A model generated the notes under the pieces. It ran no database searches. It was not told where the DNA came from and was given only the letters and a program-made list of their open reading frames with translations. From positions 1 to 25,793 of IMG/VR virus record IMGVR_UViG_3300047550_003969: a stretch of 25,793 nucleotides of DNA. The stretch is one strand, 5' to 3'. This document shows, one piece after another, positions 1,413 to 25,431 of the stretch. Positions within the stretch are counted from its first letter, which is position 1, and each line of letters opens with the position of its first letter. A program made the translations under genes and the position numbers. Origin of the DNA: a virus.

Positions 1413-1415
1413 AAT

Positions 1416-2006
1416 TTAAAATCTGTAAACCAACATCACGTCGTCGAGTTGTTCATTTATAAATCTTCTGTCTATTATAGTTGGTTTTTTCTGAATGTTT
1501 TGAATAAAATATTCTATGTTATCAGAAACATACTGAATATCTTCTATAACATACAATCCTCCTGGTTTAATTCTACTAGAATATAAATTGAATAGATTAA
1601 CCTGTGACTCTTTTTCGTGAGCACCATCGTCCAATATGATATCAAATTTTTTATCTCCAAAAACTGAATTAAATTGGACCGAATCCGCTGCATCAAAAAC
1701 ATATGCTGATATATTGTCTTCTTTTTTGAAGGGTTCGAAGGAATTTCGAATGTCTACACCATTTATTGAGGTAGATAGATTTTCAAAGAATCTTCTCCAC
1801 ATCACCAAGCTCCCACCCCTATTAACTCCAATTTCAAGAAAATCTATTTGGTTGTGTCGATATTGGCCAAATAACAAGTCATAAAAACCGGCATATGTGT
1901 GTCCAGGACCATCCGGCACAGGACCATACGCTCCCATTCCTTTATCAGTATGTCTATTTGGAAATTCTACGATTACCTCGTCATATATTTGCTGTAAACT
2001 TTTCAT
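1416..2006 (-). CDS. SAM-dependent methyltransferase, CmcI/macrocin O-methyltransferase-like
   Basis: A 196-residue methyltransferase. FLEIGVNRGGSLVMW (about residues 55-69) is the glycine-rich SAM motif. ILDDGAHEKESQ and GGLYVIEDIQ match the pattern of CmcI/TylF-type sugar O-methyltransferases, in which a DD/H group near this site binds metal. It ends 3 nt before the next methyltransferase and begins 1 nt after the DUF6492-like gene. Context suggests methylation of a hydroxyl on a glycan made by the neighbouring enzymes. The call at family level is good; the acceptor is not predictable. Confidence 0.68.
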   Translation of the reverse strand: MKSLQQIYDEVIVEFPNRHTDKGMGAYGPVPDGPGHTYAGFYDLLFGQYRHNQIDFLEIGVNRGGSLVMWRRFFENLSTSINGVDIRNSFEPFKKEDNISAYVFDAADSVQFNSVFGDKKFDIILDDGAHEKESQVNLFNLYSSRIKPGGLYVIEDIQYVSDNIEYFIQNIQKKPTIIDRRFINEQLDDVMLVYRF

Positions 2007-2007
2007 A

Positions 2008-2808
2008 TTAATATTTTAATGGGATGTTTGCATTACTTTGCATTACGATTCCTAGATATATCTGGGAATAATGTTCTTCCGTATATCCCTGATGTTTAGC
2101 TTCATGATATTGTTGCCCGTAATGAAATACCTTGAATAATGGCTCTATGGGTTGCACGCCTGTGTCGTGAGCCAGTAACCACTCCCCATACCAAGTAAAC
2201 TCGCTGGGAACTATTTTGATCGCATCACTGAAGCTAAGTTTGTTTGGTTTAAGATAATGTTCCTCAAGAAACCTCCAATTATCAGCACTCCAGATGACAG
2301 GTACTGGGCCAAAGTCGTAATAACGTCCAGTTCTTCCAAAAACGTCCATTATTTTCTTTCTGCATTCTTGAAAACTTTCTATAGGATCAAACCCAAGTTT
2401 GGATATCTTATTTACTGTCCAGTTGAACAGTTCTTTTTGTTCGTGCATCACGGTATATGGTTTTCCGTTTGGTGCAATAAAGTCGGAAATATAAAATGGA
2501 CGAATAAAATAGCTGTCGCTGTCGAGCACCAAATAGTTTTCACATAGTCCAAGTTTCCAGAATGAACTTTTTACTACTTGTTGTGCAGTCCAATCTTCAT
2601 TTTGATCATGATCGTATATAGACTCGTCGTCTACCAAAGTATATCCAGAAGCTCCAAGGATATGAACAAATACATCTCTATCTTTCTTGGGACAAGAAAT
2701 ATAAAACGGTATTTTATCCACATTGTACTTTAATACACTATCATACAGAATTTTTACTCTGTGAACGTCTCCTCTGTATGATTTGCAGTATAGAACTATT
2801 TTATTCAT
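2008..2808 (-). CDS. DUF6492-like putative glycosyltransferase
   Basis: A 266-residue protein resembling the DUF6492 group of GT-A-like proteins. It opens with a strand (KIVLYCKSY) and later has LVLDSDSYF, a DxD-type metal and nucleotide-sugar site in GT-A enzymes, followed by IRPF. A conserved-looking YDFGPVPVIWSADNW segment lies in the middle. It overlaps the upstream gene by 8 nt, implying translational coupling. It probably transfers one sugar during glycan assembly. The DxD motif supports a GT-A fold; donor and acceptor are unknown. Confidence 0.55.
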   Translation of the reverse strand: MNKIVLYCKSYRGDVHRVKILYDSVLKYNVDKIPFYISCPKKDRDVFVHILGASGYTLVDDESIYDHDQNEDWTAQQVVKSSFWKLGLCENYLVLDSDSYFIRPFYISDFIAPNGKPYTVMHEQKELFNWTVNKISKLGFDPIESFQECRKKIMDVFGRTGRYYDFGPVPVIWSADNWRFLEEHYLKPNKLSFSDAIKIVPSEFTWYGEWLLAHDTGVQPIEPLFKVFHYGQQYHEAKHQGYTEEHYSQIYLGIVMQSNANIPLKY

Positions 2809-3682
2809 AAACCTTATCCGCCATACTGTTAAATATACATTCGGTTGTCAACTTTTCTTTTGTATGATTAATAAAAAGATTTGCGAGATTAAAATATTTA
2901 GACAAATCCAATTCCTCGTTCATTAACATTTCATTTGCTCTCAAACATAAGTCCTTTGGAAAATTTACCATAGTTGTTTGTGGGCATCTCGCTATGTCTG
3001 GAAAATGGGGGACACATCCATTCAACAAAATTTCATAATGTCTCATACAATCCCATCCACCCTTCTTATGAGTAAGAGCAAAATATGATTTTTGATAATC
3101 TTCATAATATGACTTTTCGTCATCAAAAATGTATGTGCTCATTTCTCCAGGTATTACCGTTCCCCAATCTTGTGTCTTTTTTGGAATTTGTTTTACTATT
3201 TTTTCTTTTGGAGCACCAAAACTTATGGGAAACACATTTTTGACGTTGGGTTCGGCCAGTTCACGTTTAAAAACAATTCCCATCTTTAGGTATTCATGAC
3301 GTATTAGCTGATCGTCCTCTCCGTCCACAAACAGTATTTTTTCTTTTGGGTAATTTGATAATACTTCTTGCAGATAATCTAAACATCTTGTAGAAGATCC
3401 ATATATCACAAAATCGAAATATTTGTTTCGTATCTTGGATATTAAATCTTCTCTATCAACATCGCACTCATCCAAGGTTCCGTGTAGAGTCATTCCTCTA
3501 CCATAACTTTTTCCGTTGTCAGGAACTCTCGTATTCCAAAATTGTTCCTTTTCTTTTTTGTACATATACCAAGCAAAATTCGCATCAACGAAATCAGAAC
3601 CCAGAACAGACCTTCCACCATGTATAATGGTATCCGATTGATAGTCTGGCAAGTCGCCTTTTGATATGAACAATACTTTCAT
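2801..3682 (-). CDS. Putative glycosyltransferase, exostosin/GT-B-like C-terminus
   Basis: A 293-residue protein of uncertain family. It has a Rossmann-like start (KVLFISKGDLPDYQSD), a central KILFVDGEDD and a C-terminal block HKKGGWDCMRHYEILLNGCVPHFPD. That arrangement (R..E.....GC.P) is what the nucleotide-sugar pocket of exostosin-like and some GT-B enzymes looks like. It overlaps the FkbM-type gene by 4 nt upstream and the DUF6492-like gene by 8 nt downstream. A glycosyltransferase role is inferred from this block and from the context; no catalytic residue was confirmed. Confidence 0.45.
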   Translation of the reverse strand: MKVLFISKGDLPDYQSDTIIHGGRSVLGSDFVDANFAWYMYKKEKEQFWNTRVPDNGKSYGRGMTLHGTLDECDVDREDLISKIRNKYFDFVIYGSSTRCLDYLQEVLSNYPKEKILFVDGEDDQLIRHEYLKMGIVFKRELAEPNVKNVFPISFGAPKEKIVKQIPKKTQDWGTVIPGEMSTYIFDDEKSYYEDYQKSYFALTHKKGGWDCMRHYEILLNGCVPHFPDIARCPQTTMVNFPKDLCLRANEMLMNEELDLSKYFNLANLFINHTKEKLTTECIFNSMADKVYE

Positions 3683-4299
3683 AATTTTTCAAACAAAAAG
3701 TTACATTGAATCAATTTGTTGTCTATGTATGTCGGTTCGCATATGTCAGATACAGAATATCCAAGTTTATTCATGTACAAAAATACATCAGAAAACAAGG
3801 GGGCACCTTCGTTGCATTTTACAAATGAAACTTCAAGATATATCCATTTTATTTTGTTCAATAATCTCGTAGATCCATCCAATATATCAATTTCAGCTCC
3901 TTGAACATCCATTTTTAAAAATTCCATATTTGCTTCGTCTGGAATAATATCATCTAATTTATACATGGGTAATTGAACTGTTTGAGCATCTTTGAAATGT
4001 ACAGATTCTTCTTTGTATATACTACATCCAGTGGATGTTTTATCGTTTGGATTTATATAGAAAGGGACAGACTCGATTGTATTTTTTCCTAACAAACAAA
4101 TGATATATTCTTGAGTATTCGATTTTAGAATAGATTCGCAGTTGGGATTAGCTTCAAACGACACTATTCTAGAATCTGGGTATATTTGCCGTATGGTTGC
4201 ATTAGTTTCACCAAAATGTGCACCAGCATCAATAAATCCTTTTGGATATATTCCTCTACTTTTCATCCTTATCAATAGATCTCTGAAAAATCCACTCAT
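3679..4299 (-). CDS. FkbM-family SAM-dependent methyltransferase
   Basis: A 206-residue methyltransferase of the FkbM type, which O-methylates sugars and polyketides. The signature is clear: FIDAGAHFGETNATIRQ (SAM motif I, about residues 22-38), SFEANPNC (acidic residue binding the ribose), and LKMDVQGAEIDILDGS, the FkbM motif IV region. LEVSF follows. Start and stop overlap both neighbours by 4 nt (ATGA-type junctions), showing it is translated as part of the operon. It is one of four methyltransferases in this unit, implying that the final glycan carries several methyl groups. Confidence 0.8.
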   Translation of the reverse strand: MSGFFRDLLIRMKSRGIYPKGFIDAGAHFGETNATIRQIYPDSRIVSFEANPNCESILKSNTQEYIICLLGKNTIESVPFYINPNDKTSTGCSIYKEESVHFKDAQTVQLPMYKLDDIIPDEANMEFLKMDVQGAEIDILDGSTRLLNKIKWIYLEVSFVKCNEGAPLFSDVFLYMNKLGYSVSDICEPTYIDNKLIQCNFLFEKL

Positions 4300-5237
4300 T
4301 TTAAAAATACTTCGTCAAATTTTTTGATTACATTGTTTGAACTAAATCTTGTAGAATAGCAATCCCAGTCTACATCTTTCACATATTCTTTATCAATATC
4401 TTTCAAATATACGGTGAGGTCTTCTTCATTCTTATAGACGATTGCTTTTTCTCCAAGAATATGTAAATGACTTTTCATATACCACCAGTAAGGAGCATCG
4501 TATGTAAATACAGGTTTATTCATTGCTGAAAATTCTCCGACAGCTAAACCAAACGTTTCGCCGTCGCTTCTACCGTGAATCATAGCATCGCATGTATTAA
4601 TGAACTTCCATTTATAAGAACCATCCGGATTGAAAGGTAGAAACTTGATTCTAGGATGGTTTGCGAAAGGTTTGGTGTTCAAAAATATGGCCCACAAATC
4701 TTTTCTGGATTCAATAACTTTTATAATTGATGTATGTACGAACTCCAAATCAAATTGTTCATACCCACCAAGCCTACCTATTACAAAATCAGACTTTGGT
4801 ATACCAAGGTCTTCGTGTAGACTAGATACATTTTTTGGTGGATTTATAATGTGAGGAACCCACAAATCTTTACCATAAAATTTAGCCAACCATTCGCTTA
4901 CTCCAGCATACACATCTCCGTGTGGTTCACGCATATCAAATACACAATGTATAGCAGTTTTACAATTGTCTGGGGTTATTTTATCGTTATTACCTGCTTT
5001 GGTCATATACAGAACGTCAATTTTTTCTTGCTCTATGATATTCGGTATTTCTTTAGGATCTTCATATAATTTTACCCCAAACATAGAAAACCGTTCAGTT
5101 GGATGAGTAGATTTAACTCTTGAACTTATAATCAACGGTTCATGTCCAAGAATATCACGTAGAGCAGACGCATAGTCGAAAGTAACCGTACTGTTTCCAC
5201 GGAAATCTAATTGATTAGCATGCAATCCTATTTTCAT
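4296..5237 (-). CDS. GT4-like glycosyltransferase (GT-B fold)
   Basis: A 313-residue protein with GT-B features. The C-terminal half has IGRLGGYEQFD at the start of the second Rossmann domain and HGRSDGETFGLAVGEFSAMNKPV, the EX7E-like GT4 motif (E.FGLA..E) that contacts the donor sugar nucleotide. The N-terminal half (KIGLHANQLDFRGNS) would be the acceptor domain and is short, so the protein is compact compared with typical 350-400 residue GT4 enzymes. It overlaps both neighbours by 4 nt. Donor sugar unknown. Confidence 0.68.
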   Translation of the reverse strand: MKIGLHANQLDFRGNSTVTFDYASALRDILGHEPLIISSRVKSTHPTERFSMFGVKLYEDPKEIPNIIEQEKIDVLYMTKAGNNDKITPDNCKTAIHCVFDMREPHGDVYAGVSEWLAKFYGKDLWVPHIINPPKNVSSLHEDLGIPKSDFVIGRLGGYEQFDLEFVHTSIIKVIESRKDLWAIFLNTKPFANHPRIKFLPFNPDGSYKWKFINTCDAMIHGRSDGETFGLAVGEFSAMNKPVFTYDAPYWWYMKSHLHILGEKAIVYKNEEDLTVYLKDIDKEYVKDVDWDCYSTRFSSNNVIKKFDEVFLK

Positions 5238-5809
5238 AATAGTTCTAATTCTATATCATCTCCAAATAACACGCAGCCTGTTCCAGAACTGTGTCCGTAT
5301 TTAGTTAAATCATATTTTGGGTGTGTAATATCTGCCCAGAATTTGTGAAGAGGTTGAAAGTAATGAATATCATCACAAATCAACATACCTTTCCATTTGT
5401 TCTTTGTCAGAAATTCATACATCCATTGTTCATTTGTGTATTGATGATCTATGTCAAGAAGCATCAAAGAAGAACTCAATATTTTTTTCTGTATGCTCTC
5501 ATCTTCTTTGAAATTTCCTATGGAAAATTCAATGTTGGAAGGAAAATTATCGTTTTCTCTGATTCTTTCTATATCCAAACTAAATACTTTGTTGGAAATG
5601 TTGCTACTCAAGGCCAAGGCTGACGCTCCAGAATGAGTTCCAATATCAGCAATGAGAACGTTATCAAAGTAATAAGACAGATGAACCAGTAGTTTATAAT
5701 GTTCTTGTCCAGACGGCTGATTGAAATATTGACGGCTGTATTGAGGAATATTTGGTATCCCACTCAAATCATTCATATCAAGAAGGGAATTTGATAATTT
5801 GATTTTCAT
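5234..5809 (-). CDS. SAM-dependent methyltransferase (Methyltransf_24-like)
   Basis: A 191-residue class I methyltransferase. LIADIGTHSGASALAL (about residues 51-66) is motif I; VFSLDIE supplies the acidic residue at the end of strand 2; LLDIDHQYTNEQW and LICDDIHYF supply the D/H cluster found in metal-dependent sugar O-methyltransferases. It overlaps the GT2 gene upstream and the GT4 gene downstream by 4 nt each. It looks like a distant relative of the other two Methyltransf_24-like enzymes here rather than a recent duplicate, since identity by eye is low outside motif I. Confidence 0.65.
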   Translation of the reverse strand: MKIKLSNSLLDMNDLSGIPNIPQYSRQYFNQPSGQEHYKLLVHLSYYFDNVLIADIGTHSGASALALSSNISNKVFSLDIERIRENDNFPSNIEFSIGNFKEDESIQKKILSSSLMLLDIDHQYTNEQWMYEFLTKNKWKGMLICDDIHYFQPLHKFWADITHPKYDLTKYGHSSGTGCVLFGDDIELELL

Positions 5810-6489
5810 CCGTGTCCCATATTTTCTCTTATAGACCAGTTCTTATTATAAAATTCATTCTGTGATTTTTGTCTATCTATTGTTTTGTCGTGAATGATTG
5901 CCCACTCAATCACCTTCGGTAGCTCTGACACATATTCTGCACCAACAACGGTTTCGTGTAATGGTTTTTTCCATTGAATCTTAAGACTGTTCTTGTAGAT
6001 ACGAGATTGATAATCTCCGTGATTCCAATTAATGATTGGTTCATTGCCAAAATATTCAGGTAATTCTGATACATTCCATCCCCATTTTTGCGCATCTTCC
6101 CTCGTTGCACCACGAACTATATTTACTCTTGGAACACGATACAATTCAACTTTTGGATTGGATTCCAACAGTTCTCGCATATTATACAAAAAATCTGGCC
6201 ACAGATACTCATCTGCATCTAATTGTACAATATAGTCTCCCACACAACGCTTGGACCCATAGTTCTTGTGCTCAGCAAAGTTCTTATTTAAAGAATGTTG
6301 AACAACCGTAAACCCATAGCTTTTAGCTTTTGCCAAGATTTTCTTTGTATCTTCGTTGTCAGAGAAGTCATCAAGAATGACCACTTCGTCGTTGGGAGCA
6401 TTAAAATCAAGATGAGTCTTGAGCTTCTCGATCAGTTCAAGAAGCTCAAGCGTCTCGTTGTGACACGTAACAAGATAACTTATTTTCAC
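5806..6489 (-). CDS. GT2-family glycosyltransferase (GTG start)
   Basis: A 227-residue family 2 GT-A glycosyltransferase. It starts with ISYLVTCHNE, then EVVILDDFSDNEDT (nucleotide binding), NYGSKRCVGDYIVQLDADEYLW (the DxD-type metal site) and a later W-rich acceptor region with HET. The start is GTG (complement of 6487-6489), overlapping the stop of the upstream GT4 gene by 4 nt; no ATG gives a better start. It is somewhat shorter than usual for GT2 proteins but has the full catalytic core. It acts in the cytoplasm, with donor unknown. Confidence 0.82.
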   Translation of the reverse strand: MKISYLVTCHNETLELLELIEKLKTHLDFNAPNDEVVILDDFSDNEDTKKILAKAKSYGFTVVQHSLNKNFAEHKNYGSKRCVGDYIVQLDADEYLWPDFLYNMRELLESNPKVELYRVPRVNIVRGATREDAQKWGWNVSELPEYFGNEPIINWNHGDYQSRIYKNSLKIQWKKPLHETVVGAEYVSELPKVIEWAIIHDKTIDRQKSQNEFYNKNWSIRENMGHG

Positions 6490-7781
6490 GTCGAAGGAGC
6501 ATTTACTTTCTTGAATTTAGGAAGCGTAATAGCAACCTTCTTCTCAAACGCGGGAACATATTTCTCCAATATATCCATGAATACTTTGTTTCCTGCGTCA
6601 AGAGTATATTTCTCACTGTTTTCTTGTCGCAACTTTTCTGCGTTTGGAATATACTTGATATAATTGTTATACATATCTTCCAACTTTTGGGCGGCTACAC
6701 TATAATTGACATTAAACCAAGATGCTTCTTTGATCAACCATTCATTGCAAGCGCTCGGAGGTATTCTCCCAAGTTCTCCAGGAAGAAGGTTGGACAAATT
6801 TTCTGGTAGAAAATCTTTATGTCCACTCCAATTGGAAACTAGTAGCGGTTTTCCACTTAGCGTAGCTTCAAGCAATGGTCGGCCAAATCCTTCTCCGTGA
6901 GTAAAGCTAACATGTACCTTCATTTTTGGATGGTTATATAACCTATTCATTTGTTCAGGTGTCAAATCTCCGTGTATGATATATACGTTTGGAAGATCTC
7001 CAGATAATGATTCACGAATCTTGTTGATTTTATTCAGAATATCCGCCTTGTCCACGTGAGAAAATGTAGCTCCACTCGTCTTTAATACTAACGCGGGTCT
7101 TTTCTTTTTGTTTTTGAATATTTCACAGAATACTTTGATAAGCATACCTATGTCTTTTCGATCTGCACCAAGATCCCCTTGTATCCAGTGACCAACGAAT
7201 AGAAAACAGAAATCTTCAGGAATTCCCTCTAAACCAACATCTAACATTTCATTGGTATCGTTTGACTTTTTAAAGATAGACGTATCTACTCCCTCAAAAG
7301 CAACTTCGATTGGTTTGAAAACTTGCACTTTTTCTTTTTTTCCGTCCGACATCTGTTTTTCAAACGTAACATCTTTAAAAACATTTTTGGTGAAATTTGA
7401 AGGAACTACATTCAAATCCATTCGATTCAGTCCTTCAATCCATTCTGGTTTGGGAACTGTACTTTCTATACCAGCTGTAACGCCGATGTTATACTTTCCG
7501 TTTGGTTGAAATTCGTTCGGAATCCCAATTTGGACATATAAATCCGGTCTTGGTACGTTTGGAGAGGATATGAACTTACTCTTGATTTCTTTTACCATAT
7601 ATCTGGATTCGTCATCAAGTTCAGTATTTGGACAATTTCCCCATCTAGTAGGAGCTATTTTTACGTCATACTTTCCGGAATTAATTAGCGCGATAGCGAT
7701 TTGTCTAGCATGGTCGCCATAACCAGATCTAGAAGATACAGGCGCTTGTAAGAAACATGTTGGTTTGATTTCGGTACTCAT
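6486..7781 (-). CDS. GT4-like glycosyltransferase
   Basis: A 431-residue GT-B glycosyltransferase. The N-terminal domain opens with the donor/acceptor loop SRSGYGDHARQIA, common in GT4 enzymes (G.G...R.). The second domain has FLFVGHWIQGDLGADRKDI, VYIIHGDLTPEQMNRLYNHPKMKVHVSFTHGEGFGRPLLEATLSGKPL, with the E-G-F-G-R-P-x2-E signature of retaining GT4 transferases, followed by NWSGH. Length is normal for the family. It lies 5 nt after the hydroxylase gene and overlaps the GT2 gene. It may be the first transferase acting on the hydroxylated acceptor, but that order is only inferred. Confidence 0.85.
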   Translation of the reverse strand: MSTEIKPTCFLQAPVSSRSGYGDHARQIAIALINSGKYDVKIAPTRWGNCPNTELDDESRYMVKEIKSKFISSPNVPRPDLYVQIGIPNEFQPNGKYNIGVTAGIESTVPKPEWIEGLNRMDLNVVPSNFTKNVFKDVTFEKQMSDGKKEKVQVFKPIEVAFEGVDTSIFKKSNDTNEMLDVGLEGIPEDFCFLFVGHWIQGDLGADRKDIGMLIKVFCEIFKNKKKRPALVLKTSGATFSHVDKADILNKINKIRESLSGDLPNVYIIHGDLTPEQMNRLYNHPKMKVHVSFTHGEGFGRPLLEATLSGKPLLVSNWSGHKDFLPENLSNLLPGELGRIPPSACNEWLIKEASWFNVNYSVAAQKLEDMYNNYIKYIPNAEKLRQENSEKYTLDAGNKVFMDILEKYVPAFEKKVAITLPKFKKVNAPST

Positions 7782-7786
7782 TTATT

Positions 7787-8353
7787 TTATTCTATTAGTC
7801 CTTCAGGTCTTGGTGCCTCGTTGGTTACATTTTTCCAATGGAAAAATGCAGCGATAACATATTGGTCTGGCTTACATGACAGAGGTTTTCTCCAGTGAAT
7901 CATTGTTTTTCCAGGAATCATAGCTCCATCTCCAACTTTGATATCAAATGGCACAACATTACATTTTTTATCTACGCAATATAGAGGCCAAGGCTCATCA
8001 AGATTGGAATAAAGCATAACAGAAAGAGTATGATCAAGTCCGTTTCTATCAAAATGTGGATTGAGGGTACTTTCATTGAAGTAAATTCTAGCATATGTAG
8101 CTTCTGGAACTACATTTGGCATTCTAAAAATTTCTTTAATTTTTTCCGTTTTTGCTTGAAGAACTTTTCTTAATTCTGGAGGATTTCCGCCTATCGATTT
8201 ATAATAATAACGATCATCCGTTTCGTCTCTCAGTCCTTTGTTTGACCTAGCATTCATCATTACTTCCGATAAATACTCAGCCTCTTCTTTGGACAAAAAG
8301 TCCTTAACATAAGCATATCCTAAATCAGAGTATCTGTCTATTTCTAAGTGCAT
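7787..8353 (-). CDS. 2-oxoglutarate/Fe(II)-dependent hydroxylase, prolyl-4-hydroxylase-like
   Basis: A 188-residue double-stranded beta-helix dioxygenase. ARIYFNESTLNPHFDRNG holds the H-x-D iron ligands (H100, D102), and MIHWRKPL holds the distal His (H153), with basic residues R155/K161 in position to bind 2-oxoglutarate. The family hydroxylates Pro, Lys, Asn or small molecules using O2 and 2-oxoglutarate. An AAAGGTT Shine-Dalgarno lies 5 nt before the ATG. It sits between a coiled-coil gene and a GT4 gene, so hydroxylation of a protein residue before glycosylation is an attractive inference. The alternative, hydroxylation of a sugar or other small molecule, cannot be excluded. Confidence 0.78.
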   Translation of the reverse strand: MHLEIDRYSDLGYAYVKDFLSKEEAEYLSEVMMNARSNKGLRDETDDRYYYKSIGGNPPELRKVLQAKTEKIKEIFRMPNVVPEATYARIYFNESTLNPHFDRNGLDHTLSVMLYSNLDEPWPLYCVDKKCNVVPFDIKVGDGAMIPGKTMIHWRKPLSCKPDQYVIAAFFHWKNVTNEAPRPEGLIE

Positions 8354-8372
8354 ATATAACCTTTTATGATTT

Positions 8373-8564
8373 TTATGGATTTGTTCCAGTTGTATTTTGA
8401 TCTTCTTGTTCAGCGATGATAGCTTCCATCTGACCTTTTACGTCATTGATACGGTCCTTAAAATCCATCATAACTGATCGTTTCTCTTTTTCGATTTCAC
8501 GAAGTTGCTTGGCAAGTTCGTATACTTTATTTTTAGCTTCTTGTGTTGTTAATGGTTTAGCCAT
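8373..8564 (-). CDS. Small coiled-coil protein of unknown function
   Basis: A 63-residue charged protein. Residues 8-55 are predicted by eye to be one long helix with heptad-like spacing (ELAKQLREIEKEKRSVMMDFKDRINDVKGQMEAI), and the tail is polar (QNTTGTNP). No signal peptide or membrane segment. A good AAGGA ribosome site lies just before the ATG. It is the second gene of the glycosylation operon, 8 nt after the first, so it may be an accessory or scaffold for the enzymes. Function not recognised. Confidence 0.7.
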   Translation of the reverse strand: MAKPLTTQEAKNKVYELAKQLREIEKEKRSVMMDFKDRINDVKGQMEAIIAEQEDQNTTGTNP

Positions 8565-8572
8565 AATTTTCC

Positions 8573-10084
8573 TTATATGTTATTGAATTTTTTTAGTACT
8601 GCTTCTCTATCAATTTTTGGTATTTCAAATCCGAGTTGATTTTGTGGCATATTATGTCCAACATACTCGTCGTGTCTGTATATGTTGAATTGTTCTCTTC
8701 CCTTCCAACTATTCATCATACTTTCCAGTCCGTCTATCATCTTGGAGGACATATATTTGCTGTTTAGATTACCTTCGTTGCTTAACCAGCGACGACCTTC
8801 CAAACCACATTCTTTTCTCTTTTCCTTTCCGATGACATACCAATACATCATAGCTTCGGCAGCGTCTTCCCACTTACCATAATCAGCGAAGATATATGGA
8901 GTTGGTACGCTTCCTTGAACCATACGTGCTGCTGGATAAATTGGAGTGACCCATCTACCATGCTTCTTGTATTTTCCATCGTGATTGCTTCCCCAACCAA
9001 TGTTGAACTCAATTGGATTGCCGTTTTCATATGTGAAACCGCACTGATCTTGAAGACCACCAGTCACCGTGACAATGATAGGCGTTCCCGCACAAATGCT
9101 TTCAGCCGTACCTAGACCAAATCCTTCATTGTCTGAAAGATTGATAGTAACATCCACCATATTATAATAACGGTTCAGTTCCTCTGGCATGATCTTTGGT
9201 TCACTAAACACGATATCATAGTTAGGACACATCGCTTCTTTACAGGCTCGTAAATCCGTACCATTTTCATCAACAGCGTTGGTGTGCATAAATAATACAC
9301 ATTGACTTGCCTCTTCTGGAGTAAGACTATCACAGAATGCTCTGTAAGCCATCAGAATGGTAGCTGTCTGCTTTCTTCTGATGTTTCTGTTATTATAGAA
9401 AATTATATACTTGTAGTTCTTCTTAAATAACTTTTTCTTTAGTTCTTCTATTTTATTTAGCTCTTCTTTGCTTGAAAGAGGTTTGAAAGTATCGGTGTTA
9501 ATACCATGAGGCACATATGTAACCGTGGTTGGATTTTTATAAGTTTTACCCAAAACGTTCTTGACGATGTTTTCAGTCTGCTTACTAATACAACCAATCC
9601 AATCACAGCTTTCGTAAAACGCTTTGTTATACATTGGATATGGCAAATCGTCCCAAATACTATAATAACCAATAGGACAACGTTGTCTGATTTCTCTTTC
9701 GATCTGATATAGCCAGCCCCAGAAACGAGGATCTGTAAAGTGAAGTATTGCGTCTGGCTTTTCTATATTCATTATTTCACGTAGTAAATCCGGGTGTCCA
9801 TATCCGTCTACGGGATATAAACGAGTGTATCCATCTGGAATACCCGCGAACTCGCTGGTAGCCTTGTCTACGTTAAATATCTTACCTTTGTCCGGGTGTT
9901 GAATAGAACCCGCGATTTGAGCCCAGTTAAATCTATGAGCTGTACCAACGACGAATTCTCTTGCCATTGTAGCAATACCAGAATGCATTCTGATATCGTC
10001 ACATAGTAGTAGAATCTTCTTTCTTTCGTTTTGTGGGATATAACCCGGTGGTAAACTAACCGATCCAGAAGCTTGATTTTCCAT
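8573..10084 (-). CDS. GT4-like glycosyltransferase, first gene of the glycan operon
   Basis: A 503-residue GT-B glycosyltransferase. N-terminal domain: KKILLLCDDIRMHSGIATMAREF, the usual glycine-containing loop. Second domain: YIIFYNNRNIRRKQT and VTINLSDNEGFGLGTAESICAGTPIIVT, the GT4 EX7E signature (E-G-F-G-L-G-x2-E). The protein is longer than typical members because of inserts around the donor pocket and a C-terminal extension. An AAAGGT ribosome site precedes the ATG, and a sigma70-like promoter lies at 10103-10130. As first gene it sets the start of the 9.3-kb operon. Donor unknown. Confidence 0.84.
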   Translation of the reverse strand: MENQASGSVSLPPGYIPQNERKKILLLCDDIRMHSGIATMAREFVVGTAHRFNWAQIAGSIQHPDKGKIFNVDKATSEFAGIPDGYTRLYPVDGYGHPDLLREIMNIEKPDAILHFTDPRFWGWLYQIEREIRQRCPIGYYSIWDDLPYPMYNKAFYESCDWIGCISKQTENIVKNVLGKTYKNPTTVTYVPHGINTDTFKPLSSKEELNKIEELKKKLFKKNYKYIIFYNNRNIRRKQTATILMAYRAFCDSLTPEEASQCVLFMHTNAVDENGTDLRACKEAMCPNYDIVFSEPKIMPEELNRYYNMVDVTINLSDNEGFGLGTAESICAGTPIIVTVTGGLQDQCGFTYENGNPIEFNIGWGSNHDGKYKKHGRWVTPIYPAARMVQGSVPTPYIFADYGKWEDAAEAMMYWYVIGKEKRKECGLEGRRWLSNEGNLNSKYMSSKMIDGLESMMNSWKGREQFNIYRHDEYVGHNMPQNQLGFEIPKIDREAVLKKFNNI

Positions 10085-14808: not shown

Positions 14809-14999
14809 TCATATTTTGTAGCAAGATGCCAGTAACCACAATAATTACATTTGTATGGAGTTTTCTCCGACCTGTATTCCATCAGTATTCTTTTAGCATC
14901 ACGAATAGCATCATTGCGAGACTCGTATCCCATCTTAGTCTGGCATGATGCTTTATGATGATCACTTGAGGACTTGATATAGGATTTTCTTGTATTCAT
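14805..14999 (-). CDS. Small Cys/His zinc-binding-like protein
   Basis: A 64-residue basic protein overlapping the end of the RNA ligase gene by 38 nt. The C-terminal block PYKCNYCGYWHLATKYD (CxxC ... H) together with an upstream C/H (HHKASCQTKMGYES) suggests one zinc site; small phage proteins of this shape are common and mostly unstudied. A longer frame starting at 15062 lies entirely inside the ligase gene and its N-terminus looks unlike protein, so I chose the internal ATG. Confidence 0.6.
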   Translation of the reverse strand: MNTRKSYIKSSSDHHKASCQTKMGYESRNDAIRDAKRILMEYRSEKTPYKCNYCGYWHLATKYD

Positions 15000-16059
15000 C
15001 CGAACCAATAGGTTTGTTGTCCAGAATTTTGAAAACAATCGCGGCTCTTCCAGTAGCTCCATGCAATTCTAGTATCTTGGCAGCTGCTTCTTTGCGTGTA
15101 AGATGTCTGCAATCGTCCGCACATTTAAACAAACCATCCATTATTTCAAGCACAACTTTCATCGCCTTTGTGATTTTGTTTGCATGACCGTGAGCTATGG
15201 CCGCAATCTCAAAATCAAATTTTCTTGAAATATAGTTAAAGAAAGAAACATAATCATACTTTTTTGTTTCCATAACCCAGTCCATATAAACATCAATCAC
15301 TTTATCTATGCTTGATACTTCGGACTTGGCACGATGCAAGAATAGATAATGAGCAGATTTTATCTTGAGGATATCTTGATCACCGTTATAATACAAGCAA
15401 ACCCCTTCTTGATCACGCATTTCCGTGACCGATTTCTTCATATCTTCTATGCTATCATATGAATATATCTTGGGACGACGAAGATTCATACTTTCTGAAA
15501 GAGAATCTAGCGCTGCTTGACTCATCATATCATAATTGTCGTGATATACGACTCCAATTAAAACCATGTCTGGTTCGTCCCCATAGTCCAGAACAATTCT
15601 ATTGGTTGGAGTAATCCATTCAAAGATAAACGATTCTGTGTTATGTGCTACATCCAGAAAAGATTTGAACTTGGGATACTTATTGAGTAAGAAGTCTACT
15701 TCATTTCCGTTTGGTTGTACACGAGCGTCCACCGTACCTCTTGTACGAACAACTAGATGTCCTTTATATTTGGAAAATATGAGGGTAGAACCGTCTAACT
15801 TTTCCATCAGTCGAGCGTACTTCAATGAAGATGGAGCCGGAAACAAGTCCGGCTTCTCACCCATATTAAAGAATTTCTTGAAGCTCAACGAGATAGGAGT
15901 TCCTTCCTTATCCCATAATGAAGAACGATATATAAGATTTTCCTTATTCCAAACAGTGCCAAACGGTGTAGGCTGAACAAGATAGCATTCGTGTTCACCA
16001 ATATAGTGTTGATGCACCATAAAGTGTTCACGGTTTATGCTTGTCAGATCTACTTTCAT
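14962..16059 (-). CDS. rnlA: RNA ligase, T4 RnlA (Rnl1)-type
   Basis: A 365-residue ATP-dependent RNA ligase that seals broken RNA, in T4 the tRNA cut by host anticodon nucleases. The nucleotidyltransferase motif I is EKLDGS with the adenylated Lys at K87; LVVRTRGT follows; SFIFEWITPTNRIVLDYG is motif III/IIIa-like; EGVCLYY is motif IV; KIKSAHYLFLH is motif V. Length is close to T4 Rnl1 (374). It begins 1 nt after the dCMP deaminase gene. No polynucleotide kinase gene (the T4 partner) is in the window. Confidence 0.83.
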   Translation of the reverse strand: MKVDLTSINREHFMVHQHYIGEHECYLVQPTPFGTVWNKENLIYRSSLWDKEGTPISLSFKKFFNMGEKPDLFPAPSSLKYARLMEKLDGSTLIFSKYKGHLVVRTRGTVDARVQPNGNEVDFLLNKYPKFKSFLDVAHNTESFIFEWITPTNRIVLDYGDEPDMVLIGVVYHDNYDMMSQAALDSLSESMNLRRPKIYSYDSIEDMKKSVTEMRDQEGVCLYYNGDQDILKIKSAHYLFLHRAKSEVSSIDKVIDVYMDWVMETKKYDYVSFFNYISRKFDFEIAAIAHGHANKITKAMKVVLEIMDGLFKCADDCRHLTRKEAAAKILELHGATGRAAIVFKILDNKPIGSDEYKKILYQVLK

Positions 16060-16980: not shown

Positions 16981-17922
16981 TTATATTAACACTTTTTCAC
17001 GATTTATTTTGTTGATGGCGATTTCTTTCAACTTGAATTCGAAGTCAAGATGCAATGGATCTTTGTGATTGGCGTAGATGTCGGGAAGCATAGTAGGAAA
17101 GTCAGCATGAGCGCGTGGATTCTTACCGGCGAGAGATTCACTGAAATGAAACAATGGAATAACATCCTTGGGCCAAGTAGACAAAGCTTTCTCAAATGCC
17201 AGCTGGCTGCTTGTGGCATTTGCGTTGCACTGATGATGCAAATTGTCAAACGTAATCGGAATACCGAGCCGTTTGTATGTATAATTATACAATTCCGTCA
17301 CAGGCCAACTTCTAGGTTTGTCTTCGTTCTCAAGCACTAGGCGTTTACGAACACCGTCATTTAACTTGTTGTACACCTTCTCAAACCTCTCTGTTGTTTC
17401 GTGGAAATTACCATTATTATAGCAGTTCATATGGATGTTGATCGGAGCCTCATATGAACGAGGAAGATCAAGCATATCCATAATCATAGCGTGTTGTTCA
17501 AGATCTCGTATGGAATTCTTACGAGTCTTGGGGTTCGGACTGGCGGGTACAACAAACTGGTCTGGATGCATACTGCATCTAATATTATACTTTTTGATTG
17601 TGGCCGCAGCAGCGGCAAACTCGGCATGAATATCGTCAGCGTTGTAAAAATCATCTACCCCAAACTTGAGGTCTGGATGTGTCATCAATGGAAACACATT
17701 ACTACCGATACGATAGTTCCAACCGTTCTTGGCACATTCTTTGATGATACTATGAATGGTCTTGATGTTGTTCAAAGATCGGTCAGCAAGAACTTTCATT
17801 GCCTCTTTCTTACCCAATTTATTATATTGGGCGTAAGTCATTACGTTGAACTTGATCTTCTGTTCTTGTAGACCTGTGTGAATGCAACACAAGGATGGTG
17901 TGATATTAGAAGGTAAAATCAT
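16981..17922 (-). CDS. uvsE: UV damage endonuclease (UvdE/UvsE family)
   Basis: A 313-residue TIM-barrel endonuclease that nicks DNA 5' of UV photoproducts. The family landmarks are present: IKFNVMTYAQY start, YRIGSNVFPL, IRCSMHPDQFVV, INIHMNCYNNG, RLVLENEDK, ITFDNLHHQCN and LFHFSES, which carry the His/Glu/Asp metal ligands. Length matches bacterial UvsE. The ATG at 17931 is possible, but the promoter -10 box overlaps it (17932-17937), so the second ATG at 17920-17922 is the better start for a near-leaderless transcript. UV repair suits a phage exposed to sunlight. Confidence 0.9.
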   Translation of the reverse strand: MILPSNITPSLCCIHTGLQEQKIKFNVMTYAQYNKLGKKEAMKVLADRSLNNIKTIHSIIKECAKNGWNYRIGSNVFPLMTHPDLKFGVDDFYNADDIHAEFAAAAATIKKYNIRCSMHPDQFVVPASPNPKTRKNSIRDLEQHAMIMDMLDLPRSYEAPINIHMNCYNNGNFHETTERFEKVYNKLNDGVRKRLVLENEDKPRSWPVTELYNYTYKRLGIPITFDNLHHQCNANATSSQLAFEKALSTWPKDVIPLFHFSESLAGKNPRAHADFPTMLPDIYANHKDPLHLDFEFKLKEIAINKINREKVLI

Positions 17923-17931
17923 ATGGACCAT

Positions 17932-18018: not shown

Positions 18019-18738
18019 TTAGAACTTTAGGTTCAATCCAGCAGATACACCATTGATGGTATTTCCGGCGGTAAACAATGCGTCACGGCGTTGATAAACG
18101 TCGGCGGAAACGGTTGCTCCCTTGACGTATGTGGCAACTCCAAGACCAGCGATAACATATTGCTTGCTGTCTTTGAAAGCAGCGATTGTTGCGGCTGTTG
18201 GATCATTGAATCCATAACCAAGTGCTGGGACTAACTTTAGTCCTTGGAAGCCGAAAGGTAGTCTGACGTTGGCTTGAAGATTTGTAGAATGACTCTTCAA
18301 ATCGTTGCGAGCCAATACATCCCAAGTGAACTTGGTACCTTTGACGCTGCCATCCAGCTTAGCGAATGGTTCAACGCTGCTGGCATATCCGTTGGACTGA
18401 GCCGACTTTGAGAAGGTATGATAAGTACCACCAAAGGTCAGATTAGCCAAAGGAGATGTGAACTTGTAGCCAATGTTTGTGTCTACACGCTTGAACAGCC
18501 CAGAAGAAGCTGTGGTCTTGCCCACGGTCTTGTCCTGAGTGGTGGTGAATGTATTGACACCCAGCACAAAGCCAGCTGCTTCATATTCAGCACCAGCGAT
18601 GACGACGTTCTCAAAAACCAACGTACCCTTGTCGATATAGTTGGTTAGATACTTCGCATCAACTGTAACGCCGACTCCGGCGTTCAATGTAACGGCGGTA
18701 AACAATGCCATTATTGTTACTAGTAGTTTATTCTTCAT
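18019..18738 (-). CDS. Secreted outer-membrane beta-barrel protein
   Basis: A 239-residue protein with a clear Sec signal peptide (MKNKLLVTIMALFTAVTLNA, cleavage after about residue 20), then alternating hydrophobic/polar strands with aromatic girdles (VDAKYLTNYIDKG, VDTNIGYKFTSP, LTFGGTYHTF, FTWDVLARND, NLQANVRLPF, LVPALGYGF, QYVIAGLGVATYV, TVSADVYQR) and a C-terminal aromatic (GLNLKF) as in BAM-inserted barrels. The size suggests about 10 strands. Phage-borne barrels such as lambda Lom or OmpX-like proteins alter the lysogen or infected cell surface; an exclusion or surface-masking role is plausible. Monocistronic, with promoter, leader hairpin and strong terminator. GC content looks higher than in the glycan genes, suggesting transfer from a host. 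Confidence 0.8.
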   Translation of the reverse strand: MKNKLLVTIMALFTAVTLNAGVGVTVDAKYLTNYIDKGTLVFENVVIAGAEYEAAGFVLGVNTFTTTQDKTVGKTTASSGLFKRVDTNIGYKFTSPLANLTFGGTYHTFSKSAQSNGYASSVEPFAKLDGSVKGTKFTWDVLARNDLKSHSTNLQANVRLPFGFQGLKLVPALGYGFNDPTAATIAAFKDSKQYVIAGLGVATYVKGATVSADVYQRRDALFTAGNTINGVSAGLNLKF

Positions 18739-19980: not shown

Positions 19981-20380
19981 TGGTGGACGTGAGGGGAGTT
20001 GAACCCCTGTGTCTTACAACATATATATAAACATATACATGCTTATCTCTTTTTATACGACAACATTTGATAGAGCATCGTGTTGAAGTTGAGGGCTCGT
20101 ATTGACTCGCTATTGTTACGACCCTCGTCCTTACAATAGCCAGCAGATGTTTGACGTTGTTGACTTGTTATCTGCGTCACAAGGACAACGGGCTGCTTAT
20201 TATATTAAGCAGCGGCTAGAAGCTCAACGTCGGCGTTCTTTTTGAAGGAAACGCTGATGAGGCTCTTCTTTGCAAGATTTCTCTTAGCATTTATTTTTTC
20301 CAACGGGTATTATACAGAGACGTTAGGCTCTGTGCATGCGGCCTATACCTATATCATAAGATAGAATCCAGAACACGCCC
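19981..20380 (-). ncRNA. ssrA: Phage-encoded tmRNA
   Basis: Transfer-messenger RNA, which frees stalled ribosomes and tags their products. Seen directly: a 7-bp acceptor stem GGGCGTG (20374-20380) with CACGTCC (19985-19991) including the G3-U70 pair that alanyl-tRNA synthetase needs; encoded CCA (19981-19983); a T arm AGGGG-TTCAACT-CCCCT; an ACAGAG/CTCTGT hairpin whose loop CTAACG can pair with CGTTGG, the PK1 pseudoknot; a tag reading frame 20205-20288; and a stop codon within a perfect 8-bp hairpin (20192-20213), the helix H5. The 27-residue tag starts AKRNLAKKSL and ends ADVELLAAA. It is longer and more basic than usual tags. No SmpB gene is in the window, so host SmpB is presumably used. 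Confidence 0.92.
20205..20288 (-). other. tmRNA tag reading frame
   Basis: 27 codons plus TAA, resuming at GCT (20286-20288), inside the tmRNA. The product has six Lys and one Arg, and ends LLAAA where most tags end LAA. The stop sits in the 5' arm of the H5 hairpin. Confidence 0.8.
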
Positions 20381-21646: not shown

Positions 21647-22440
21647 AAGTAAGTGTAATAATACCGTGTTATAATTTTGAGCAGTATATCGAACAATGTT
21701 TACTATCGGCTGCCTCTCAAAAAACCAACTTTGAATTTGAGATATTGATACGAGATGACGGATCTTCGGACAAATCAAGAGATTGTATCAACAGAGTATG
21801 TTATAGATTGGGAGATGGTTTCAACATCCGTAACTTTTCCGACATACATGAACAAGGAAAAAATTTGGGACATTCTGGGCTGAATAATTTCAGGTTCATG
21901 TTAGACCAAGCAAAAGGAGATTATATAGCGTATCTTGATGGAGACGATTATTGGATAGACCCATATAAACTTCAATTTCAAGTGGATTTTTTGGAAAATA
22001 ATAAAGAGTATGTTATGGTTTTCACTGGTCACTGGGAAAAAAATGATGAAGGAGTATATAACCCATCGGACCCAGGTTGTTGGCTCGGTCTTCCATCAAA
22101 TTTGTTCAAGGATAATGACGTGAGTACTGATAGATTACTAAGTTATAATTGGGCGGTGTACGGCAGAGTTTACAGAAATATTCCAAATTTGATAAAAGAC
22201 TGGATGGTTGGATTGCCCATATTAGATTGGCCCATGAACTATGAAATGTCAAAGATCGGAAAAATAAAATATATTGACATTCCCACGGGAGTGTATAGAA
22301 TTCATAACAAATCCACTTTTGGAATATTGAACGAAAATAAAAAGAAAGAGCACGTCGATAATGTCCGAAAGATAATAAGAGAAAAACATAAAGAAAGTTA
22401 TCTAGATTACGATACAAACGAACCAATCGTTGGAATGTGA
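21643..22440 (+). CDS. GT2-family glycosyltransferase
   Basis: A 265-residue family 2 GT-A transferase. VSVIIPCYNFEQYIEQCLLSA, EILIRDDGSSDKS and GDYIAYLDGDDYW (the metal-binding DxD) are the standard N-terminal half; W-rich LLSYNWAVYG and LPILDWPMNYEMSKIGKIKYI, then GVYRIH complete the acceptor half. It overlaps the aminotransferase-like gene by 4 nt, so the two probably act on the same amino-sugar. This is a separate glycosylation unit from the large operon on the left. Confidence 0.86.
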   Translation: MKVSVIIPCYNFEQYIEQCLLSAASQKTNFEFEILIRDDGSSDKSRDCINRVCYRLGDGFNIRNFSDIHEQGKNLGHSGLNNFRFMLDQAKGDYIAYLDGDDYWIDPYKLQFQVDFLENNKEYVMVFTGHWEKNDEGVYNPSDPGCWLGLPSNLFKDNDVSTDRLLSYNWAVYGRVYRNIPNLIKDWMVGLPILDWPMNYEMSKIGKIKYIDIPTGVYRIHNKSTFGILNENKKKEHVDNVRKIIREKHKESYLDYDTNEPIVGM

Positions 22441-22444
22441 TAAA

Positions 22445-22927
22445 ATGAAAAAACTAATATACAAACAAGGAGACTTATTGATAGCAGAAGATGTACAAGT
22501 GATTGGACACCAAGCCAATTGTCAAAATACATTTGGAGCGGGTATTGCTAAAAATATAAAAGAATTTTATCCTAAAGCGTTTCACGCCGACACTATGGCT
22601 TACAAAGATGGAAAAGCCGTATTGGGTAGTTTTAGTTTTTGTCACTTAGAGTTCAGCAGCCGATTCAAAAAGATTTTTAATCTTTATGGTCAAAGTTTAT
22701 ATGGTAAAGGAAAACGGCAAACAAACTATAATGCGTTATTTGATGCACTAGAAGGAATGAAGAACCATCTGATTGAAAATGACGAAGATCTCCCGGTTCC
22801 AGATGTTGGGTTTCCGTATCTTATGGGGTGTGGACTTGGTGGTGGCGACTGGCGTATCGTGGAAAGACTAATAGAAGTAGCTTTCCATAACTACGAAGGA
22901 AATGTTATAATCTATAAACTCCAATAG
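22445..22927 (+). CDS. Macro-domain protein (ADP-ribose binding or hydrolase)
   Basis: A 160-residue macro domain. VIGHQANCQNTFGAGIAKNIKEFYPKA carries the N..G.G.A......P pattern of the ADP-ribose pocket, FNLYGQ and VGFPYLMGCGLGGGDWRIVERLI give the second loop (P..G.GlgG..W). Such proteins bind or hydrolyse ADP-ribose 1''-phosphate or ADP-ribosyl groups. The frame can be read from a TTG at 22430, but that lies in the GT2 gene and the ATG at 22445 is better. Its stop abuts the convergent gene. With the SLOG protein it makes two ADP-ribose-type modules in one operon. Confidence 0.85.
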   Translation: MKKLIYKQGDLLIAEDVQVIGHQANCQNTFGAGIAKNIKEFYPKAFHADTMAYKDGKAVLGSFSFCHLEFSSRFKKIFNLYGQSLYGKGKRQTNYNALFDALEGMKNHLIENDEDLPVPDVGFPYLMGCGLGGGDWRIVERLIEVAFHNYEGNVIIYKLQ

Positions 22928-23861: not shown

Positions 23862-25364
23862 TTATTTCATTACTATAAGTTTTACATTTTTTATCAACAC
23901 GTCTTTGTCTAAACCATATGTATAAAAGTTTAAATCAAATTTTCCCGAAGTCGGAACAGCCTTTATAATATTACCCAATTCACCCAAAGTCATTGTAAAC
24001 GTGTGAGACGCCTTGGGCGATGTTGTACTTGGATCTCCATCCATAATTTTTATTCGTCCAACATACGTTTTTCCAACATACACATCTATTCTAGCTCTTC
24101 CTTTATGGGATATTGGTCCAGTTTCAACTTCTAATAAAGAAATTGCATCAAACCATCCACTTCTAATAAATGCTTTTGTGCTTTCATCTGGTTCAATTGT
24201 AACACTCAATCCAGCTTTGGCTGTTGTTGACTTGTTAATATTAAAAGCTACCGAATTTATTGAATTTATTTGGCGAGGCGAAGATTTAAGTTTAAACGAT
24301 TCGATTGAAGGTGCTTGGTATGAGACAGATTGCGTCCACAAGAATATTTCTTTTACAGAAACACTTACAGGAGATCCATCAAGATCGGGATAAACATATC
24401 TTTGTTCACCCCAAGGACCATTTACGTCCGGCATAGTGTTCTTGTATAATGACCATATACGATCAAGATTAGCATGATGCATAAAGAAAATAGGATCATT
24501 AGCTGCGTATCTTAATGTTCCCATATTTCTATTACATCCATATCTTGTACCAACCCAATCGTGACCATCGTTGTGGGCGCCAGATTCAAGAAGTCCTTGG
24601 CCGGTCTTTTGATCTATACCAGGTTTACCCATAAATTGCTCCCACGGGGTTGTTAGCATAAGATTAATATATTCGTGGCTCATATAATTTCTGCATTCTT
24701 GAATATGCTGCTTTGAATCTTCTTGAGTTTCTAAATTCGGATCCATTCTGCTTTTGTCGATTGTTGGGCCACGATTGCCATCATACAAAGCAAGATTATC
24801 GAATCCAAGATTATCTCCCTTTACCATATTTTGCTTGGTCAAATCATACCCAAATAATGGACTTGCCAATCCTCTTTCTATTCTTTCTTTTGTGTTTGGC
24901 ATTTCAGCGTTATTCGTCCAGTCCCAATATGGATATGCGAAAGATGCTCCATTATATCCTTGCTTACTTAAACAATTTGCAAGAATTCTTTCGAGAAAGA
25001 AAATATAACCACGATGCCAAGGAAGAAAATGCCATCCCCAATGAACTTGAGGATGATCGGCATCCCACGCAGTACAATGTTTGTAATGAATACGTGCATA
25101 TGATTCCCAACTTGTGGACAACTCGAGCGGAATAGAATTTCGCATATATCCAACAGCTCTACATAGATTTTTTACTTCATCATCGGTGAGATCGTAAAAA
25201 CTCTTACGTACACGTAAAGGATCACTACCAAATACAAATTTTTTAGCGTCGTCTACTCCACACAATTCAAATGGTTTAGGTTGTTTTTCAGCGGTTTTTC
25301 CAATTGAAGCTATTGTTGCTCCAAACAAACCTGTTCCCAAAAAGTTTCTTCTTGATATGTCCAT
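23862..25364 (-). CDS. Tat-exported tyrosinase / polyphenol oxidase (type-3 copper enzyme)
   Basis: A 500-residue copper oxidase that would oxidise phenols or tyrosine to catechols and quinones. The start at 25364 gives a twin-arginine signal (SRRNFLG then a hydrophobic stretch). CuA: H93, H108 (QVH) and H117 (PWHR), with C97 placed as the Cys that forms the thioether to H108 in plant-type enzymes. CuB: H264, H268 (HNDGH) and DPIFFMHHANLDRIW (H296/H297). A middle linker with DLDGSPV and a C-terminal beta domain ending near KFDLNFYTYG recall the PPO1_DWL and PPO1_KFDV domains of plant polyphenol oxidases. The frame runs upstream to 25553, but that part crosses a terminator. Co-transcribed with the MptE-like gene. 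Tyrosinases in phages are, to my knowledge, not described. Confidence 0.9.
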   Translation of the reverse strand: MDISRRNFLGTGLFGATIASIGKTAEKQPKPFELCGVDDAKKFVFGSDPLRVRKSFYDLTDDEVKNLCRAVGYMRNSIPLELSTSWESYARIHYKHCTAWDADHPQVHWGWHFLPWHRGYIFFLERILANCLSKQGYNGASFAYPYWDWTNNAEMPNTKERIERGLASPLFGYDLTKQNMVKGDNLGFDNLALYDGNRGPTIDKSRMDPNLETQEDSKQHIQECRNYMSHEYINLMLTTPWEQFMGKPGIDQKTGQGLLESGAHNDGHDWVGTRYGCNRNMGTLRYAANDPIFFMHHANLDRIWSLYKNTMPDVNGPWGEQRYVYPDLDGSPVSVSVKEIFLWTQSVSYQAPSIESFKLKSSPRQINSINSVAFNINKSTTAKAGLSVTIEPDESTKAFIRSGWFDAISLLEVETGPISHKGRARIDVYVGKTYVGRIKIMDGDPSTTSPKASHTFTMTLGELGNIIKAVPTSGKFDLNFYTYGLDKDVLIKNVKLIVMK

Positions 25365-25409: not shown

Positions 25410-25431
25410 AATCCCCGACATCTCGGGGATT
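25410..25431 (-). terminator. Intrinsic terminator of the 64-residue membrane protein gene
   Basis: Perfect 9-bp stem AATCCCCGA/TCGGGGATT with loop CATC, then a U6 run on the minus strand. It separates this gene from the tyrosinase. Confidence 0.82.

Follow-up and report, generated by a model that had tools for sequence, protein, structure and literature searches.

The analyzed stretch of DNA (the window), a linear fragment of 25,793 bases (25.8 kb), makes up an entire IMG/VR virus record. Its feature of main interest is an open reading frame on the minus strand which starts with ATG and codes for a tyrosinase of 500 amino acids (Table 1). At the same locus, an alternative frame of 563 amino acids begins upstream of a terminator hairpin; this is an unlikely start, since the relatives of the tyrosinase all begin at the twin-arginine (RR) segment. 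The terminator and the AT-rich stretch that follows it suggest that the tyrosinase forms a transcription unit of its own. Likewise, a terminator and then TATAAATA are found upstream of the tyrosinase at two further viral loci (L027 and L013). As the top-enriched motif upstream of genes in that genome is the reverse complement of the TATAAATA-type site, no expression timing is claimed from TATAAATA, and the assignment of a promoter class based on it was dropped. In a 297-kb contig (L077-L091), an upstream motif CTTGACTT recurs, often followed by TATAAAA, and ATATTTAT occurs near the start codon, with 37 of its 98 total occurrences in upstream regions; these motifs possibly represent early and late promoter classes. 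Three scans of IMG/VR yielded 19 other contigs from many metagenomes, encoding proteins with 45-68% identity to the window tyrosinase. Several of these contigs are near-copies, and the viral set analyzed therefore consists of 14 distinct sequences, window included.

Table 1 Features of the tyrosinase locus and its syntenic neighbors in the window
Feature	Position	Strand	Basis or remark
Tyrosinase (type-3 copper phenol oxidase), 500 aa	23862..25364	-	PF00264, AF2 model, Foldseek
Twin-arginine motif SRRNFLG (residues 4-10), head of predicted Tat signal peptide	25335..25355	-	RR in 14/14 distinct viral homologues
CuA site H93, C97, H108, H117	25014..25088	-	Invariant in viral sequences
CuB site E260, H264, N265, H268, D269, H297	24474..24587	-	Invariant in all viral sequences covering CuB
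C-terminal beta-sandwich domain (367-500), putative inhibitory lid resembling that of plant pro-PPO	23865..24266	-	AF2; within full-length matches to 4z11-4z14, 6els, 6hqj
Intrinsic terminator just upstream of tyrosinase, then AT-rich TATAAGTATATATA stretch	25410..25431	-	
Macro-domain protein (DarG-like), syntenic tyrosinase neighbor	22430..22927	+	Macro 27.5 bits; DarG 42 bits, far below cut-off
tmRNA, syntenic	19981..20380	-	RF00023, 98.4 bits
Signal-peptide protein, probable outer-membrane beta-barrel (OMP), syntenic	18019..18738	-	
UV-damage endonuclease UvdE, syntenic	16981..17931	-	PF03851, 154 bits
T4-type RNA ligase / tail-fiber attachment catalyst, syntenic	14962..16059	-	PF09511, phrog_562

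Tyrosinases are the copper enzyme family behind melanin formation and fruit browning. In a Pfam profile search, the window protein matched PF00264 (Tyrosinase) with 125.1 bits (E = 6.7e-36, cut-off 22.6), residues 84-309 aligning to profile positions 2-213 of 214, and this is the single Pfam family found in the protein. All six copper-ligand histidines (H93, H108 and H117 in CuA; H264, H268 and H297 in CuB) are invariant in the viral sequences, and a seventh histidine, H296, is present. Hence, the tyrosinase with complete CuA and CuB ligand sets that a first-pass annotation had read from the letters alone is borne out, and the loss of copper-site conservation that would have spoken against it is not seen in the alignment, conservation being complete in the viral copies covering the site. 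The same annotation had also named two plant-type families for the Pfam search; here, only Tyrosinase was matched, while PPO1_DWL and PPO1_KFDV gave no match in the window protein at gathering score or at an E-value of 10. Altogether, the protein is almost certainly a type-3 copper phenol oxidase. The segment H93-YKH-C97 displays the plant-type H-x3-C topology, as had been noted from the spacing, and does so in all viral copies; C97 is the predicted thioether partner of H108. Moreover, E260 as waterkeeper, N265 as HisB1+1 and D269 as HisB2+1 residue are invariant in the viral sequences. The roles of these positions have been described previously, and Asn or Asp at HisB1+1 combined with Asp at HisB2+1 afforded high monophenolase activity in CgAUS mutants (PMC7693034). 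Since E260, N265 and D269 provide a waterkeeper Glu together with permissive activity controllers, a combination that acts as predictor and not as proof, monophenolase activity of the viral enzyme is likely as judged from its residues.

An AF2 model of the tyrosinase, obtained from a 43-row alignment with bacterial homologues included, reached a pLDDT of 79.5 and a pTM of 0.83; from only ten viral-type sequences, the core was poorly modeled (pLDDT 45). The model is composed of a helical copper core (residues ~40-350), a short linker (~350-366) and a beta-sandwich (367-500), the latter with pLDDT values mostly between 84 and 95 in blocks of ten residues (lowest 66), so that the two-part C-terminal region recognized at first pass can now be described as linker plus beta-sandwich. 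A Foldseek search against the PDB ranked latent aurone synthase first, followed by latent tomato and apple PPO and then by Hahella tyrosinase. As the matches to the latent plant PPOs extend over the full length (TM 0.55-0.65, ~22% identity, rmsd ~7 Å), the C-terminal domain is equivalent to the inhibitory domain of the plant pro-enzyme in both fold and position. This resemblance to the plant lid is confined to structure, the Pfam families KFDV and DWL being blind to the domain. From its fold, the domain would block the active site, and latency of the viral enzyme through it is fairly probable. In case of the tyrosinase vsTyr, the core without its C-terminal extension displays 213 U/mg compared to 0.67 U/mg for the full-length enzyme (PMC10526336). 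A search of BFVD gave no tyrosinase-like structure match, only partial matches of beta-sandwich type. Hemocyanin was rejected as closest relative, as the structure search puts plant PPO first; that it tops the PDB sequence list is due to its many repeated units adding up.

The N-terminus of the protein reads MDISRRNFLGTGLFGATIASIG, a twin-arginine signal in which the SRRNFLG motif is followed by the hydrophobic region FLGTGLFGATIASIG. This signal had already been recognized at first pass, and its RR pair (residues 5-6) is found in 14 of the 14 distinct viral sequences inside an otherwise drifting N-terminus, where the mean majority frequency is 0.50 (residues 1-35), with 0.76 for core residues 51-350 and 0.46 for the C-terminal domain. 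Such retention amid drift argues for real Tat export and not for a relic, and export of the enzyme via the Tat system is very probable. In the copy at L023:10001-11494, a possible lipobox (TTAC) follows the Tat motif; hence, this copy may be a lipoprotein. The tyrosinase could also be a component of the virion or be released upon lysis, with the RR segment as a left-over of a bacterial ancestor. T4-like phages do package accessory proteins, and at L025 large proteins are encoded directly upstream of the tyrosinase, one of them resembling Microcystis and Flavobacterium phage proteins. Yet, the RR pair was kept in all copies while the flanking signal region diverged and, in most contigs, the tyrosinase does not lie within a structural module, which renders this explanation improbable.

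While the window fragment contains no structural genes, it does carry T4-like families, namely T4-type RNA ligase, clamp-loader, dCMP deaminase, dNMP kinase and exonuclease. Contig G001 (297,258 bases) combines the tyrosinase with terminase, portal, head-tail adaptor and tail-spike genes as well as more than 30 tRNAs, and the 109-kb contig G009 combines it with a different T4-like terminase (TerL). With 51-52% identity, the terminase of G001 resembles its counterparts in Microcystis phage Mel-JY01 and Flavobacterium immuto phages, and with ~52% identity that of G009 resembles those of cyanomyoviruses and Pelagibacter phage Mosig; with two distinct terminases, at least two separate T4-like lineages carry the tyrosinase. 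In the window as in G001, the genes are arranged in the order tyrosinase - macro domain - tmRNA - OMP - UvdE - RNA ligase - HNH with other genes interspersed, and the L015 group displays the same order, again with some further genes in between. A tmRNA is also present in L015, L016, G001, G006 and G010. A chimeric assembly, or a viral contig contaminated by a bacterial gene, was conceivable for a linear fragment of 25.8 kb, and contiguity of the phage neighbors had accordingly been named as a check in the first-pass annotation. However, independent assemblies keep the same neighbors and their order across the suspected join at 23.8-25.5 kb, the GC content of the tyrosinase tracks its contig (gene 32-57%, locus 31-52%), the gene recurs on 19 other contigs obtained from many metagenomes, and in two lineages a terminase lies on the tyrosinase contig. 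For the tyrosinase family, chimerism and contamination are thus ruled out by synteny, GC tracking and the further contigs, and what chance is left to them is negligible. With TerL on G001 and G009, portal and tail genes on G001 and the shared synteny, the presumed location of the tyrosinase in a real tailed-phage genome is supported. There, the gene is conserved under purifying selection, with dN/dS values of 0.08-0.13 in unsaturated viral pairs (L027/L013 0.097, L019/L022 0.13, L019/L026 0.08). A tyrosinase pseudogene is ruled out by the intact frame, the invariant active site and these dN/dS values.

The syntenic UvdE gene in the window's group favors a possible function in photoprotection, in which quinones would give rise to a melanin-like pigment shielding the infected cell or released virions from sunlight. 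This function is quite unlikely, as UvdE lies several kb off with the tmRNA and other genes in between, is absent from the inspected stretches of the other lineages, and is present in many phages without a tyrosinase. The macro-domain protein, which is also encoded near the tyrosinase at L027:11525-12025 and L015:13036-13518, is a candidate counter to DarT-type DNA ADP-ribosylation defense, its similarity to the DarG antitoxin being weak. Further tmRNAs near the tyrosinase are located at L082:7795-8185, L015:14866-15246, L103:10042-10429 and L108:1776-2158, and the predicted tag peptides are long and unusual (AKRNLAKKSLISVSFKKNADVELLAAA in the window, AEDNVISYDFVSRDAKVALAA in another lineage). 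At positions 738-10084 of the window, a series of genes on one strand codes mainly for glycosyltransferases, FkbM-like methyltransferases and further sugar-related proteins, likely a surface or capsid glycan island. Within it, the gene at 7787-8353 is labeled ferrochelatase in PHROGs (phrog_2954), perhaps wrongly; it has no Pfam match and by eye appears nearer to a 2-oxoglutarate dioxygenase. Two-partner-secretion (TPS) domain proteins with DUF5649 repeats are encoded ~6-8 kb from the tyrosinase (L027:273-2246, L015:1817-4051), a pair of proteins that combine a signal peptide with Ig-like domains immediately upstream of it (L015:8902-9963), and an AIR synthase-like (PurM-type) gene just upstream of it (L019:1586-2659). 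At L023, the tyrosinase follows ~0.9 kb after a class II ribonucleotide reductase gene.

Regarding its origin, a scan of 84,980 bacterial and archaeal species in GTDB r220, based on two short peptide patterns by which relatives could be missed, revealed one close cellular homologue, L029, from a Verrucomicrobiota MAG (43% identity over the full length). The remaining hits were tyrosinases of ~23-32% identity across the copper core and one match of 43% that was restricted to the CuB part. When 388 Verrucomicrobiota, 50 L029-family, 294 Planctomycetota and 398 Pseudomonadota genomes were searched by profile, nothing closer than L029 emerged; the nearest-relative search as a whole covered bacterial and archaeal genomes. 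As all tyrosinases in the profile-searched genomes other than L029 were distant, a widespread bacterial gene was rejected as the source of a simple transfer. In two trees, the viral proteins and L029 form a clade with support values of 100/99 and 100/100 on a branch of ~2 substitutions per site, which sets them apart from ordinary bacterial tyrosinases. The nearest of these homologues mostly display C-P-H with a fungal-type Cys position, which vsTyr has as well, the viral clade H-x3-C. L029 itself is placed inside the viral clade, but a tree placing it outside is not rejected (AU p 0.40), and its gene lies on a bacterial contig (VHCG01000074) next to DUF7133/cytochrome c and hydrolase genes. 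As L029 is not firmly placeable outside the viral clade, either an ancient viral uptake from a Verrucomicrobiota-like source took place or L029 was gained from a virus. The bacterial host gene that the first-pass annotation had proposed as source consequently stands as a weak suggestion, set against the long viral branch of its own. Concerning the host, a profile of the syntenic OMP matched 14 of 195 Verrucomicrobiota genomes and none of the 200 Pseudomonadota or 136 Cyanobacteriota genomes compared; the difference between Verrucomicrobiota and Pseudomonadota is significant (Fisher 4e-5), the matches being remote (20-34 bits). The group-B OMP profile gave no host signal (1/190), and that of the terminases is ambiguous, pointing to Microcystis and Flavobacterium phages for G001 and to cyano- and pelagiphages for G009. 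For the window's group, but for no other, OMP matches and L029 together lean weakly towards Verrucomicrobiota as hosts.

Among the genes known from phages are those of photosynthesis and of nucleotide and sugar metabolism; with an exported copper oxidase that depends on oxygen, their repertoire would gain a new type of chemistry. No phage tyrosinase was matched in 50,697 INPHARED (GenBank phage) records, PHROGs or BFVD, nor was one reported in the openly accessible journal literature searched; the impression at first pass that a phage tyrosinase is new is hence uncontradicted by these sources, and priority is not claimable. The enzyme family as such is already known, and what is new is the viral clade, its plant-type topology and its packaging for Tat export in phages. 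As sequenced bacteria almost entirely lack the viral branch, it appears that phages maintain an enzyme by which phenols or tyrosines are oxidized at the infected cell's surface.

On balance, and with slightly better than even confidence, we read the locus as coding for a working, phage-owned tyrosinase of PPO type which is Tat-exported, probably latent and most likely modifies the envelope of the infected cell. The enzyme would be made in the infected cell and, as we infer, loaded with two copper ions in the cytoplasm before passing in folded form through the host Tat system to the periplasm or cell surface. There, its C-terminal beta-sandwich would probably keep it latent until proteolysis or changed conditions. 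The active enzyme would then use O2 for the hydroxylation of monophenols and oxidize o-diphenols to reactive quinones, which may cross-link or coat surface proteins and glycans, leaving the cell hardened or closed to competing phages. Envelope modification or superinfection exclusion as the actual role is speculative, and we consider it possible at less than even chance; the oxygen use and light protection also put forward at first pass are likewise hypothetical. In favor of the envelope role, exported or outer-membrane neighbors are found in several lineages, such as a TorF-like barrel in L015 (whose member of the OMP alignment matches Gcw_chp/TorF putative porin), a TPS-domain protein, secreted Ig-domain proteins and DUF2490. 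These neighbors differ between lineages, and the copies in L023 (after class II RNR) and L025 (beside DNA polymerase A) lie without a surface-protein neighbor; therefore, the envelope role rests on association. Among the neighboring proteins, no strikingly tyrosine-rich partner substrate was found, and export through Tat takes long in comparison with a lytic cycle, which counts against an envelope role. That several large tailed-phage lineages own a distinct, mostly virus-confined tyrosinase subfamily as an exported weapon or sealant, its quinones hardening or masking the infected cell's surface to exclude competing phages, is doubtful; if true, a virus would be tanning a bacterial cell by means of an enzyme.

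Alternatively, the exported enzyme could polymerize toxic small phenolics in humic waters and thus keep the infected cell productive, a form of phenol detoxification or carbon supply. Removal of inhibitory phenolics in peat has been proposed for bacterial tyrosinases (PMC8375020), which favors this possibility. N265 and D269, predicting the use of monophenols, would fit as well. Furthermore, the title of the MAG with L029 refers to a DeepCast 0 m sample, presumably Lake Tanganyika water. However, neither the window nor the neighborhoods inspected contain another gene of aromatic metabolism, and detoxification is unlikely. Some other role, including one in the virion or lysate, is given a small chance. 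If active, the enzyme would connect infection by phages with the chemistry of melanin and quinones on the cell surface and be a testable candidate for phenol turnover or the exclusion of superinfecting phages; moreover, a family of biotechnological use would gain a viral clade whose active site has plant-type topology.

Compared to known systems, the viral tyrosinase resembles latent plant PPOs (cgAUS 4z11-4z14, apple 6els, tomato 6hqj) in its whole-length fold including the C-terminal domain, in its H-x3-C thioether topology and in a waterkeeper Glu four residues before HisB1. It differs from them by an identity of only ~22%, a C97-x10-H108 spacing instead of x18 in cgAUS, a bacterial-type Tat signal in place of a plastid transit peptide, and the lack of a DWL/KFDV Pfam signature. 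With vsTyr from Verrucomicrobium spinosum, it shares the Tat signal, a core plus C-terminal extension (inhibitory in vsTyr), the absence of a caddie protein, and waterkeeper Glu and Asn activity controller, whereas vsTyr displays a C-x-H thioether (C84-H86) instead of H-x3-C and Asn instead of Asp as second controller (PMC10526336). L029 is 43-47% identical over the full length and has the Tat motif, H-x3-C and the E/N/D set in common with the viral copies, but carries a C-terminal extension of ~100 aa and resides on a bacterial contig. The six-histidine type-3 copper core is also that of Streptomyces MelC2 and the Bacillus megaterium tyrosinase, both of which are without a C-terminal lid; MelC2 in addition needs the caddie MelC1, and its profile is matched with ~48 bits at a cut-off of 450. 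Finally, the viral gene resembles phage auxiliary metabolic genes or morons in being a cellular-type enzyme carried as cargo of large myoviruses near tRNA/tmRNA clusters.
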